From assembly GCA_040752815.1 (NCBI GenBank), contig JBFMGC010000020.1, positions 1 to 46,182 on the forward strand: a stretch of 46,182 bases of DNA, written 5' to 3'. The translations under genes and the position numbers were made by a program. Source of the DNA: Candidatus Zixiibacteriota bacterium (GTDB lineage: Bacteria > Zixibacteria > MSB-5A5 > GN15 > FEB-12). Shown here in pieces: positions 19,353 to 46,182 of the stretch. How positions within the stretch are numbered: position 1 is the stretch's first letter; each line of letters starts with the position of its first letter. Below the pieces are notes generated by a model. That model was not told the DNA's origin and did not search any database. It worked only from the letters and a program-made list of their open reading frames with translations.

Positions 19353-19398
19353 GTAGGTCGGGTTCCGAACGTTGACCACTTGTGTGAGAAACCCGACA
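19353..19398 (+). repeat. 46-bp GTAG-type palindromic repeat, copy 1
   Basis: It starts GTAGGTCGGGTTCC and ends GAAACCCGACA; the ends can pair around a short variable centre. It lies 16 bases after the M29 stop. Five copies of exactly this length occur in the window. Confidence 0.85.
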
Positions 19399-19406
19399 GT
19401 TGGATC

Positions 19407-19452
19407 GTAGGTCGGGTTCCAAACATCGACCATTCGTGTGGGAAACCCGACA
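19407..19452 (+). repeat. 46-bp GTAG-type palindromic repeat, copy 2
   Basis: Same ends and length as copy 1, in tandem with it and separated by eight bases; the centre differs at several positions. A degenerate third piece (GTCGGGACCC ... GTCTCGACA) follows near 19468-19492. Confidence 0.85.
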
Positions 19453-22756: not shown

Positions 22757-22802
22757 GTAGGTCGGGTTCCGAACATTGACCAATGGAGTGAGAAACCCGA
22801 CA
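22757..22802 (+). repeat. 46-bp GTAG-type palindromic repeat, copy 3
   Basis: GTAGGTCGGGTTCC at the start and GAAACCCGACA at the end, with centre CGAACATTGACCA. It lies upstream of the M1 gene, in the gap to pspC. Confidence 0.85.
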
Positions 22803-25577: not shown

Positions 25578-25623
25578 GTAGGTCGGGTTCCGAACATTGA
25601 CCAATGAGGTGAGAAACCCGACA
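25578..25623 (+). repeat. 46-bp GTAG-type palindromic repeat, copy 4
   Basis: Nearly identical to copy 3 (22757-22802), including the CGAACATTGACCAATG centre, which suggests recent copying. Confidence 0.85.
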
Positions 25624-25773: not shown

Positions 25774-26763
25774 ATGACAAGGACCATAGTCATGTTGCTT
25801 TCAACTACTATTGCACTATCCACCGCTTCCGCCGGCGAGATGTCGGACGCGATTCCCATGCGTCCTTCGCACACATACTCCATCGTCTGCTACGATTCGG
25901 CCACCGGGCAGTTTGGGGCGGCGGTGCAGTCGCACTGGTTCAAGGTGGCCAATGTCATATGGGCTGAGCCGGGAGTAGGCGCAATCGCTACTCAGTCGTT
26001 CTCAGATTACAGGTACGGCCTGCTCGGTCTCGAGATGATGCGCGCAGGCAAGTCGGCTCAGGAGGCATTAGCCGGTCTGCTCGCCAGCGATCCTAACGAG
26101 GCAGTCCGTCAGGTTGGGATGATCGACATCCACGGCGGTGTCGTGGCGCATACCGGAAGCAAGTGTATTGCTGACGCAGGGCATCGCGTTGGCGTGAACT
26201 ACTCAGTTCAAGCCAATCTGATGCTCAAGAATACGGTGTGGGACGCCATGGCCGAGGCGTTTGAGAACGCCAAAGGCGATCTCGCGGACCGCATGATGGC
26301 CGCGCTCGAGGCGGCCCAGGCTGAAGGCGGCGATATTCGCGGCAAGCAATCGGCGGCGATGATCGTGGTCGCGGCCAAACCGACCGGTCTCCCCTGGCAG
26401 GATCGGTTGGTCGACATCCGCGTAGACGACTCCGCAGAACCGCTCAGGGAGCTGAAGCGCCTGTTGGAAGTGACGCGCGCGTACCAGAAGATGGACGAAG
26501 GCGATAACTTGGTCACGCTCGGCAAGTTCGACGATGCCGGTACGGCGTATGCCGAGGCGGCGAGGCTCAACCCCGACAATGTCGAGATTCTGTTCTGGCA
26601 CGCGGTGACACTCGCGTACAACGGCCAGGTGGAGCGCTCGCTGCCGATTTTCAAAGAGGTATTTGCGAAAGCTCCCATCTGGCGTGAGTTGGTACCGCGA
26701 CTCGTGAAGCCTGAGCTGCTGCCTGATGATCCGAAGTTGATTGAGAGGATTGTGAGCCAGTAG
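25774..26763 (+). CDS. Exported DUF1028 (Ntn-hydrolase-like) protein with TPR tail
   Basis: A 329-residue protein with a signal peptide (MLLSTTIALSTASAGE). The DUF1028 core (residues 33-235) shows THTYSIV-like SHTYSIVCYDSATGQFGAAVQS, GVGAIATQSFSDYRYG, and HTGSKC(I)ADAGHRVG followed by YSVQANLM. The C-terminal 90 residues contain TPR-like helices (LGKFDDAGTAYAEAARLNPDN). DUF1028 has an Ntn-hydrolase-like fold and unknown substrate. GGAG precedes the ATG. The stop codon TAG is the TAG of a GTAG-type repeat that begins at 26760, so the repeat sets the C-terminus. Confidence 0.9.
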   Translation: MTRTIVMLLSTTIALSTASAGEMSDAIPMRPSHTYSIVCYDSATGQFGAAVQSHWFKVANVIWAEPGVGAIATQSFSDYRYGLLGLEMMRAGKSAQEALAGLLASDPNEAVRQVGMIDIHGGVVAHTGSKCIADAGHRVGVNYSVQANLMLKNTVWDAMAEAFENAKGDLADRMMAALEAAQAEGGDIRGKQSAAMIVVAAKPTGLPWQDRLVDIRVDDSAEPLRELKRLLEVTRAYQKMDEGDNLVTLGKFDDAGTAYAEAARLNPDNVEILFWHAVTLAYNGQVERSLPIFKEVFAKAPIWRELVPRLVKPELLPDDPKLIERIVSQ

Positions 26764-26805
26764 GTCGGGTTCCGCGCATTGACCCATTGAGCGCGAAACC
26801 CGACA
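26760..26805 (+). repeat. 46-bp GTAG-type palindromic repeat, copy 5
   Basis: Overlaps the end of the DUF1028 gene; its GTAG provides the TAG stop at 26761-26763. The centre has a compensated GCGC pair (TTCCGCGC ... GCGCGAA), evidence that the stem is kept as a stem. Confidence 0.85.
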
Positions 26806-43663: not shown

Positions 43664-44761
43664 GTGTCACATAAAGAGGTCCAGGTCTCCACGGCAGAGG
43701 TCTTCAGGCTGTTCCTGATTTCCCCGCGCACCCCGAAATCCTTCGACGCGTTCTTCGGCCTTTGCGTGGACCATACCAAGTCCTGTTTAAGGCAACTACG
43801 CGCCTCGGGTTGGCGGCTCCCTGTCGACCAACTCCAGGCCGAACGGGCTCTTTCCGATATGACCATCGACATACTGGGCGTGTTTCTTGCCAGTCAAAAA
43901 GGCCATCCGTACTTCATCATATTCTTCTACTTGAAGCGGCATGGCCTCACCCATTTCCAGAGAGTCCCTGATAACGAGCTGCTACGGCATTTCAACATCC
44001 TGTTGGGCGGGTTCATCCGCAAAGCTGTAACCGCCGCCAAAGGCGGCGCCGACCCACAAGTGGCCCTGCTGAAGCGTCGTGTCACTGACATCTTGCGTAC
44101 CCATACCTACACCGTCATGAAACGGCCCGGCGACAGGCACAGTTACATTGTACTCAGCCAGAGAAAACACCAGCTCCGGGAGAGCTGTCACACCATTCCC
44201 GACGACAGGTTGTATGAGTTGGTCTTGGACGCCTTTCTTAACACCAACAGCCGCGCTGACTGGTGCATGCGGATCTTTGAGTTGCTTGATGCCGAAACCG
44301 AGTACCGGAATGAGGTCGCCCTCAATTCGCTGATCAGCACCATGATCGCGGTCAACGCAGAGTATGTCGATGCCCTTGAATATACCCAGGACCGCCCCTC
44401 CGGCCCGCTGGGCGAGCTGCGCCTTCGCAAAATCCGCAAGGCGGTTGAGCGGGCGTCGCTGTGGATAAGTGATGTCGGGGCGCGGGCGTATATCGAAAAG
44501 GGCCGCCTGGCCGAATCAGACGCCCACGCCGTTATCGAGGCCTGTTGCACCTGGCTGAACGACCTGTGCCTCTCCGGCGCGGCGGACTCGATCCCGTCAT
44601 ATTTCCTGGAGCTACGGCATGATATCAACCAGCAAGAGTACCAAAGCCGCTACAAGTACGTTATGGACACTCTCTCCCGCCAGGCGCTCGAAGAGGTCCG
44701 TCGAATCCTCCGTGAAGATTCCACAATCTGGCCGCTTGGAGACTACCTACCAGATGAATAA
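43664..44761 (+). CDS. Unrecognised protein, possibly sigma-factor-like
   Basis: A 365-residue soluble protein with no signal peptide or membrane helix. I do not recognise it firmly. The N-terminal section SFDAFFGLCVDHTKSCLRQLRASGW followed by ALSDMTIDILGVFLASQ has the helical pattern of sigma-70 region 2 (compare AEDLxQExFLxV), and an anti-sigma-like zinc-finger gene comes next. The rest is helical, with basic stretches (LLKRRVTDILRTH; LRLRKIRKAVERA) and no clear region 4. The GTG at 43664 has no good ribosome site; the AGAGGGAG at 43635-43642 is about 20 bases away. It is first gene of a three-gene operon. Confidence 0.7.
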   Translation: MSHKEVQVSTAEVFRLFLISPRTPKSFDAFFGLCVDHTKSCLRQLRASGWRLPVDQLQAERALSDMTIDILGVFLASQKGHPYFIIFFYLKRHGLTHFQRVPDNELLRHFNILLGGFIRKAVTAAKGGADPQVALLKRRVTDILRTHTYTVMKRPGDRHSYIVLSQRKHQLRESCHTIPDDRLYELVLDAFLNTNSRADWCMRIFELLDAETEYRNEVALNSLISTMIAVNAEYVDALEYTQDRPSGPLGELRLRKIRKAVERASLWISDVGARAYIEKGRLAESDAHAVIEACCTWLNDLCLSGAADSIPSYFLELRHDINQQEYQSRYKYVMDTLSRQALEEVRRILREDSTIWPLGDYLPDE

Positions 44762-44775
44762 GGGAAGGGCGTAGT

Positions 44776-45630
44776 ATGCATCCGTCACGGGATGACCTGA
44801 TTTTGTACATAGACGGCACCCTGGCCGACCTGGTGCGCCGGCAGGAAATCTCCGACCATGTCGAGGCCTGCGAGTTCTGCGCCGAGTTCTGCCGGAACTA
44901 CCGGCAGCTCGCCGAGCCTACCGAACCGACAGCGGCCGAATCACTGCCAGAGAAGTTCTCTCGCCTGCGGGATTCGCTGTACGAATCCGCGCTTCGCAGC
45001 CTGGTAGTCGACCTCAAACCGCTCATTTCGGAGCGCCCCGAGGTGTCGTATCTCGCTGCCGACGGCCCCTCCGGCAAGCAGCCCGCCGTGCGTAAGATCG
45101 CCACGTTATACTCCGAAAGCCCCGAGGTGGTGGTCCAGATCATGCGTAACACCGAGCAAGGGCGTGATTACCTGCAAATCCAGTCCGAGGAACCGCGCCT
45201 TGCCGCCCACATCATGGTGCAGCTGCCCGAACTGGGGCGGGAGTTTGTCACCGATGCCCACGGCCGCGCCGAGCTCGATCTTTCCCCTGCCACCAATCTC
45301 GAACAGCTCAAGTGGCAGATCAAAATGCCGGACGCGGTATTCGCGCTGGAGCCGCTTGCCTACGATCCGGACAAGGTCGAGTACACCCGCGAAATGACCC
45401 TGCAGACCGATCGGCATGACCGCATCGATATTCGTTTCGAGGGCCGCACCGAGGGCAAACAGCTCTCGATTCGTGTGGTCGAACTCGATGGCCGCACCGA
45501 TTTCGGCCCGGTAAAAGTTGTCGTAACTCAGAAATCACGGACCAATCTGGTATCGGCATTGGCAGGAACGCCGGTTATGATTGGCCCGGTTGACCCGGAC
45601 ACAACAATTGATATCCGCCTGTACCAGTAA
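44776..45630 (+). CDS. Zinc-finger anti-sigma-like protein, soluble
   Basis: A 284-residue protein. The N-terminus DLILYIDGTLADLVRRQEISDHVEACEFCAEFCRNY has the anti-sigma zinc finger HxxxCxxC (His28, Cys32, Cys35, with Cys39 nearby). No membrane helix follows, unlike typical anti-sigma factors. The middle is helical and the C-terminal 120 residues look beta-rich (LELDLSPATN-like; RIDIRFEGRTEGKQLSIRVVELDG). It may sequester a sigma-like partner, for which the upstream gene is the natural candidate. AAGGG precedes the ATG. Its TAA is followed at once, in the same frame, by the ATG of the next gene. Confidence 0.75.
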   Translation: MHPSRDDLILYIDGTLADLVRRQEISDHVEACEFCAEFCRNYRQLAEPTEPTAAESLPEKFSRLRDSLYESALRSLVVDLKPLISERPEVSYLAADGPSGKQPAVRKIATLYSESPEVVVQIMRNTEQGRDYLQIQSEEPRLAAHIMVQLPELGREFVTDAHGRAELDLSPATNLEQLKWQIKMPDAVFALEPLAYDPDKVEYTREMTLQTDRHDRIDIRFEGRTEGKQLSIRVVELDGRTDFGPVKVVVTQKSRTNLVSALAGTPVMIGPVDPDTTIDIRLYQ

Positions 45631-46182
45631 ATGAAACCGTCGCCGCTCGCATTCGCCCGAAGTTTCGAACAGCTCCGCGGCCGCCTCGAAAGCCAGCCCG
45701 CCGCGGATCTTCGCTTGCTGCAGCTCGCCGATTTCTGGCCCAGCCTGAGCCAATTCCACGACGATCCATCATACCGCAACTACTTCGACGAGTTCTCATC
45801 ACTGCTGGAGCATGACATAAGTGAATGCGCCATTATCGACTTGTTGCCCAATGAGTTGCGCCAGTTACTTAATATTGCACTTGAAGTAAGTAGTATCGCT
45901 ACAGCCAGTCACGTGCCCGGCAGTGGCGTAGGTCGGGTTCCGGCCCCGGCCGAAGCGCCGGGGGAGAAACCCGACACCGACACCCCCGACCTGAAACGTG
46001 CCCGGTCCAGTTCAGTCGGGCACCCATCCGCCGACTTACAGCACTCTGAGAGTGCCCGGCAGATGCCCTCATCTGCCGATTTGAGAGACGCCCCCCACAT
46101 TCATCTGCTCGCTCTCGAAGCCGCCCGCAAATTCTTCTATGTCGGCGCGACCGACGACGCCCTCGCCTGCCTGTACTCTGTG
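45631..46182 (+). CDS. Unrecognised protein with palindromic repeats in its coding sequence, 3' end missing
   Basis: 184 codons are open to the window edge. The N-terminal 92 residues (FARSFEQLRGRLESQPAADL, then FWPSLSQFHDDPSYRNYFDEF and DLLPNELRQLLNIALEV) look like helices. Residues about 100-150 are low-complexity, rich in Pro, Ser, Arg and Asp, and coincide with three palindromic repeats. Helical sequence resumes with HIHLLALEAARKFFYVG ... DALACLYSV, suggestive of TPR-type helices. The ATG directly abuts the previous stop in the same frame with no good ribosome site, so it depends on coupling. A TPR or TPR-CHAT protein is one possibility; I cannot confirm it. Confidence 0.65.
   Translation, partial: MKPSPLAFARSFEQLRGRLESQPAADLRLLQLADFWPSLSQFHDDPSYRNYFDEFSSLLEHDISECAIIDLLPNELRQLLNIALEVSSIATASHVPGSGVGRVPAPAEAPGEKPDTDTPDLKRARSSSVGHPSADLQHSESARQMPSSADLRDAPHIHLLALEAARKFFYVGATDDALACLYSV
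45928..45976 (+). repeat. GTAG-type palindromic repeat inside a coding sequence
   Basis: GTAGGTCGGGTTCC ... GAAACCCGACA with a GC-rich internal hairpin (CCCCGGC ... GCCGGGG). It is 49 bases long and is read in frame as part of the gene at 45631. Confidence 0.8.
45998..46023. repeat. Palindrome GTGCCCG / CGGGCAC inside a coding sequence
   Basis: A 7-bp stem with a 12-base loop, read in frame as part of the gene at 45631. Confidence 0.6.
46057..46078. repeat. Palindrome CGGCAGATG / CATCTGCCG inside a coding sequence
   Basis: A 9-bp stem with a four-base loop, third palindrome in the same coding stretch. Confidence 0.65.

Follow-up and report, generated by a model that had tools for sequence, protein, structure and literature searches.

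The stretch of DNA analysed here (the window, 46,182 nucleotides) covers all of contig C20 in a Candidatus Zixiibacteriota genome of 3.19 Mb in 136 contigs. At its right-hand end an open reading frame on the forward strand continues without a stop codon up to the last base of the window, which is also the contig end, and the gene is therefore cut, with its 3' part elsewhere. The encoded host protein is conserved in Zixibacteria and helical in its N-terminal part; its nearest named homologue comes from the Candidatus Zixiibacteriota MAG CP070824, and a paralogue of the gene is found in the same genome (C1:164809). A simple codon-usage gene caller missed the window gene, which is short and has a low codon score across the insert described below. 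Directly upstream lies a gene at 44776-45630 whose product starts with a Cys/His motif (HVEACEFCAEFC) that resembles zinc-finger anti-sigma factors. Pfam gave no match for this gene or for the upstream gene at 43664-44761, and the homologue of the host gene in genome G008 is also preceded by a similar upstream frame.

Inverted repeats were detected within the host frame at 45932-45950/45957-45975, 45998-46004/46017-46023, 46041-46047/46049-46055 and 46057-46065/46070-46078. A preliminary description of this DNA had placed palindromes inside the uninterrupted frame, and the open reading frame, the inverted repeats and folding all confirm this. It had also started the repeat segment at 45928 and named a single family, GTAG, to which one palindrome belonged; the GTAG element is indeed present, but the insert begins at 45913 and contains two families, here called A and B. 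The insert is a mosaic that consists of a partial B head and one A element, followed by a B element whose hairpin is of the variable type, a small palindrome and finally a B element of standard form (Table 1). A repeat search with default seeds returned nothing at the insert, and shorter seeds were required. In the A element GTAG is unpaired and followed by two stems, 8 and 7 bp long, that are interrupted by internal loops, which is the form of a GTAG REP. As DNA, both the standard B element (z=-5.15) and the A element (z=-2.80) folded better than their shuffles, and as RNA the whole of 45913-46080 reached z=-3.66 against shuffles. Rfam held no family for the insert region and gave one chance match far below cut-off. 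Translation of the repeat DNA would give about 54 residues of a linker that is predicted to be disordered and is rich in proline, serine and charge, from which VPAPAEAPGEKPDTDTPDLK and SSSVGHPSADLQHSESAR are the predicted tryptic peptides.

Table 1. Repeat elements and the genes that carry them. Positions without a contig name refer to the window.
Feature	Position	Strand	Basis
Host gene, 5' part, 184 codons	45631..46182	+	ORF reading, homologue comparison
Whole REP-derived insert, about residues 95-150	45913..46079	+	inverted repeats, homologue comparison, AlphaFold
Partial B-family head (GTGCCCGGCA), immediately 5' of the GTAG element	45913..45922	+	sequence
A-family GTAG REP (GTAGGTCGGGTT...AAACCCGACA), translation V-GRVPAPAEAPGEKPDT	45928..45976	+	inverted repeat, copy count, folding
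B-family element with variable hairpin (GTGCCCGG...CATCCGCCG), translation ARSSSVGHPSA	45998..46033	+	repeats, folding
Small palindrome GCACTCT-G-AGAGTGC, separating the B elements	46041..46055	+	inverted repeat
B-family element, 27 nt (GTGCCCGGCAGATGCCCTCATCTGCCG), translation ARQMPSSA	46052..46078	+	repeats, folding
Two tandem A-family (GTAG) copies, intergenic	19353..19451	+	pattern match
A-family copy, intergenic	22757..22802	+	pattern match
A-family copy, intergenic	25578..25623	+	pattern match
A-family copy; its TAG is the stop of the preceding frame, 25774-26763	26760..26805	+	pattern match, ORFs
hypF with in-frame REP-derived loop (SARQMPILKRARQMPSSAG)	C6:56405-58840	-	gene caller, domain profiles, relatives
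O-antigen ligase (Wzy_C) with two B elements in frame (PRARSAAGGPSSAD...GARQMPSSAG)	C73:5185-6549	+	gene caller, domain match
Error-prone DNA polymerase, frame open from contig edge	C54:1-2824	+	PRK05672 profile

Copies of both families were counted genome-wide by pattern searches, with the reversed pattern as control. Family A is defined by a head, GTAGGTCGGGTT, and a tail, AAACCCGACA; the exact head occurs 56 times in the genome (reversed control 0), and in the window it has nine matches with at most one mismatch, against 0.13 expected. Family B consists of GTGCCCGG, a hairpin and then CATCTGCCG, most commonly in the 27-nt form GTGCCCGGCAGATGCCCTCATCTGCCG. Its palindromes, GGCAGATG(N)CATCTGCC, number 33 genome-wide (control 0), and a looser B core pattern was present in 45 of the 96 genomes searched, the source genome counted (control 0). 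The B tag is GTGCC in this genome and mostly GTGGG, sometimes GTAGG, in relatives; the B elements of this genome therefore lack the GT(A/G)G tag of the GTAG REP superfamily. The CGTC tag of Rickettsia palindromic elements and CGTC REPs is absent from both ends of A and B in this genome.

For the placement of the repeats we used the same simple gene caller on 474 kb surrounding the listed family copies: 102 of 108 units fell outside called genes, 3 at an edge and 3 within two other genes, counts in which the caller under-represents contig-edge and trimmed-start cases, including the window gene, C42 and C54. Among the A units surveyed, 62 of 65 were outside called genes, a few of which were later found to be in frame. 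When repeated 13-mer stretches were counted irrespective of family, 231 lay outside genes, 6 at edges and 3 inside. Repeats were also found close to the ends of many contigs.

Comparison with homologues, which the preliminary description had named as one way to check its proposal, gave a clear difference in length. The window protein has 85 residues between the conserved helix that ends near residue 82 and the FFYVG motif, compared with 20-31 in 19 homologues that span the same family to the same class, all of them without the insert. Relative to the closest orthologue, the window gene is longer here by exactly 54 codons net, so that the insert of about 50 residues described earlier is real and its size is corrected. 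Identity to that orthologue stays in register across the insert without a frameshift (59% before, 56% after), and the conserved protein resumes behind it (EAARKFFYVG); of the two observations that would have spoken against an insertion, a homologous, non-repetitive linker of such length is absent from these homologues and a broken frame is not seen. With identity to the closest orthologue at only about 53%, the exact empty site was not seen among the homologues compared. The same-genus genome G001 (77% complete) contained no match to the window protein, and the nearest orthologue therefore comes from another genus. AlphaFold2, run on a two-sequence alignment, gave pLDDT below 50 at residues 94-153 only and helices on either side, in agreement with the linker between two helical parts envisaged before; as the alignment was shallow, we take this low-confidence segment as supportive only.

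A profile of the C-termini of the homologues matched the first part of contig C42 (E=1e-134) as the continuation of the protein. The C42 frame, 567 codons in all, has no stop from base 2 onwards; it starts HVGRVPSIDHSGEKPDTTPVDRDPRGPDMSVSHVGRVPSIDHSGEKPDTAPVGMTPIPTYKRAKPRFVRARF and begins with two more A elements (GRVPSIDHSGEKPDT) translated in the frame of the window copy and two related palindromes, followed by conserved protein. The peptide GRVP...EKPDT, for which the preliminary description had suggested a search, recurs there in frame, on what is most likely the missing half of the window gene. From their sequences C20 and C42 most likely carry one split gene, a join that we infer; a search of 398 kb of small contigs did not turn up the roughly 117 residues that separate the two parts. 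The closest orthologue, in CP070824/G028, also appears split, its 3' part lying about 615 kb away in the record, with the gap at the linker that holds REPs in C42. We rejected this split as biology, as it coincides with a run of N and is probably a scaffolding or assembly gap.

Two further genes of the genome, and probably a third, contain the repeats in frame. HypF (812 codons) has all its Pfam domains and scores above the TIGR00143 cut-off; its REP-derived loop has 50 residues, compared with 14-19 in ten relatives (about 31-36 extra), and HypF chains in the PDB are likewise without it. A predicted tryptic peptide of this insert begins QMPSSAGSYYTPH. In the O-antigen ligase, the corresponding segment has about 47 residues versus about 6 in the same-genus genome G001, and the B elements apparently lie between two membrane segments. 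The peptide ARQMPSSA recurs in frame in both HypF and the ligase. In the C54 polymerase, residues 185-941 match positions 285-1047 of the PRK05672 profile, and 184 residues (about 550 nt) of tandem REP-type repeats with a period of about 189 nt, or 63 codons, precede the catalytic part. Since the N-terminal (PHP) half was not found in a motif search of small contigs, fetched stretches, 40 contig starts and 20 contig ends, this case is only probable, and REPs are probably read in frame upstream of the polymerase catalytic part. Outside this genome, the homologue of the window protein in G036, which represents another genus, has an 893-codon frame (contig C70, reverse strand) with its own REP-like cluster at a different site, consisting of GTAGGGTGGGGGC... 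palindromes and GTGGGCGGCAGACGCCCTCGTCTGCC between the RMRLL region and the VAFDNQ motif. Together, the homologues without insert and the other host genes support the earlier proposal that REP-like elements of this lineage can become protein sequence, as far as can be read from the genomes.

Stops are scarce in four or five of the six frames of A and B REPs, and five of six are open in B elements. In all four host genes with B elements (window gene, hypF, ligase and G036), the frame used is x-RQ[MT]PSSA or a variant of it, with the exception of the 10-nt partial head at 45913, which is read in another frame. A single B frame would arise by chance in about 1/125 under equal use, a value from a test chosen after the data had been seen. 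The window gene and C42 translate A elements as GRVP...EKPDT; the C54 polymerase uses a second frame.

The genome encodes three Y1_Tnp genes. One of them (C4:75507-75983) lies between inverted copies of GTAGGTCGGGTT at 75448(+) and 76030(-), forming a unit at 75448-76041; a transposase between inverted repeats is the arrangement that defines RAYT/REP units (PMC2817692). The flanking copies keep the A head and have a slightly different tail (CAACCCGACA). A second Y1_Tnp gene (C1) is closely flanked by a different GTAG repeat, of the GTAGGTCGAAACC family, with a B-type element on one side. No transposase flanked by the B tag GTGCC was identified. The A family is probably moved by a genome-encoded RAYT-type tyrosine transposase. 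Non-autonomous REPs of the two families would have spread through the genome and built up a mosaic where a conserved protein has a linker between helices that tolerates insertion. Insertions that broke genes would have been removed, and those that kept the frame in flexible linkers would survive; the window gene could have stayed open because the added length is a multiple of three and the frame used has no stop. The same course would have been taken in hypF, the O-antigen ligase gene and probably the error-prone polymerase gene. Transposition presumably put the REPs in the host genes, and the insert-bearing protein would be made and working.

Considering all observations, insertion of REPs into a linker, with the frame kept and the repeats becoming part of the predicted protein, is with high probability the best explanation. 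We give hardly any credence to the idea that the palindromes are ordinary coding sequence with a coincidental resemblance to the intergenic family: the GTCGGGTT/AACCCGAC arms are indeed short and GC-rich, yet the counts contradict it, the 27-nt B element being identical to many copies, the 12-nt A head exact and the controls zero, and the stretch is absent from homologues and its repeats occur in other genes. A repeat-mediated misjoin that set REPs beside a gene fragment would fit the presence of repeats near many contig ends, at one of which the window gene lies. However, the frame crosses the repeats within the contig and returns to homologous sequence in register, and hypF and the ligase gene lie inside contigs and are conserved at both ends, and we consider such an artefact very improbable. 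The window gene might also be a decaying pseudogene in which REPs are tolerated and the frame is open by chance, as could be argued from its truncation at the contig end, its two REP clusters, the paralogue and the scarcity of stops in the repeats. Against this, no stop interrupts the frame ahead of, within or behind either cluster (184 and 567 codons), conserved residues flank them, and the same repeats occur in a HypF that is full-length, retains all its domains and shows no evident decay, making decay quite unlikely.

The segments could, on the other hand, be kept for a function, either as flexible linkers or, at the mRNA level, as hairpins that adjust how well the message is translated or how stable it is. 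In line with this, a single B frame is used in four independent host genes (three here, one in G036) though five frames are open, the insert RNA folds strongly, a second hit on the window protein's family occurred in a homologue from a different genus, and error-prone polymerases are also among the REP-tagged proteins of other phyla (PMC3733652). But the host proteins are unrelated and the sites differ, the A family uses a second frame in the polymerase, and the hydrophilic, cysteine-free frame may be favoured as other frames harm the protein; we therefore find domesticated use rather unlikely, and infer near-neutral insertion filtered by selection, not gained function.

Translated intragenic REPs are already known. 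GTAG and CGTC REPs were described within frames of several phyla (Di Nocera 2013, PMC3733652), among them those of Opitutus terrae, Thauera and Rickettsia conorii, in clusters that encode 20-82 residues, and both neutrality in linkers and altered function were discussed in that work. As there, the REP clusters reported here lie in frames of known proteins including an error-prone polymerase; differences are the host group, a second family that lacks a GTAG or CGTC tag in this genome and is translated in a single frame in all host genes observed, insertion at different sites in homologues from two genera, and HypF and O-antigen ligase as hosts. The A family shares with the GTAG REP/RAYT system (Nunvar 2010, PMC2817692; PMC3733652) the unpaired GTAG, the imperfect palindrome, a high copy number with most copies intergenic, a transposase gene between two inverted copies and clustered mosaics, and differs in the slightly different tail of the RAYT-side copies and in its occurrence in Zixibacteria, which are not among the phyla listed there. 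The preliminary description had pointed to Rickettsia palindromic elements, the older example of in-frame palindromic DNA (Ogata 2000, 2002, as cited in PMC10969869). The analogy is apt, palindromic DNA being read in frame as peptide in unrelated proteins, and the present repeats differ in lacking the CGTC tag, in their shorter units (27-50 nt) arranged as mosaics and in being mainly intergenic; closer kin by sequence are the GTAG-tagged REPs with RAYT (PMC3733652).

Our literature search found no paper joining Zixibacteria with REPs, and Zixibacteria are thus a host group without an earlier description in the literature searched. It is conceivable, if rather doubtful, that REP insertion repeatedly supplies proteins of Zixibacteria with new loops, with B carried in a usable frame (RQ[MT]PSSA), one protein family invaded independently across genera, polymerases targeted as in other phyla and some insertions kept for function. 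HypF is the best and cleanest test case, as this enzyme is well studied, its structures are solved and the insert lies in a defined loop, and the lineage lets the choice of frame and site be studied over dozens of genomes. For gene calling and alignment, the finding is also a warning that repeat DNA can encode genuine protein. Collectively, these genomes suggest that REPs lengthen the predicted sequence of conserved enzymes in a phylum for which the literature searched holds no such description.
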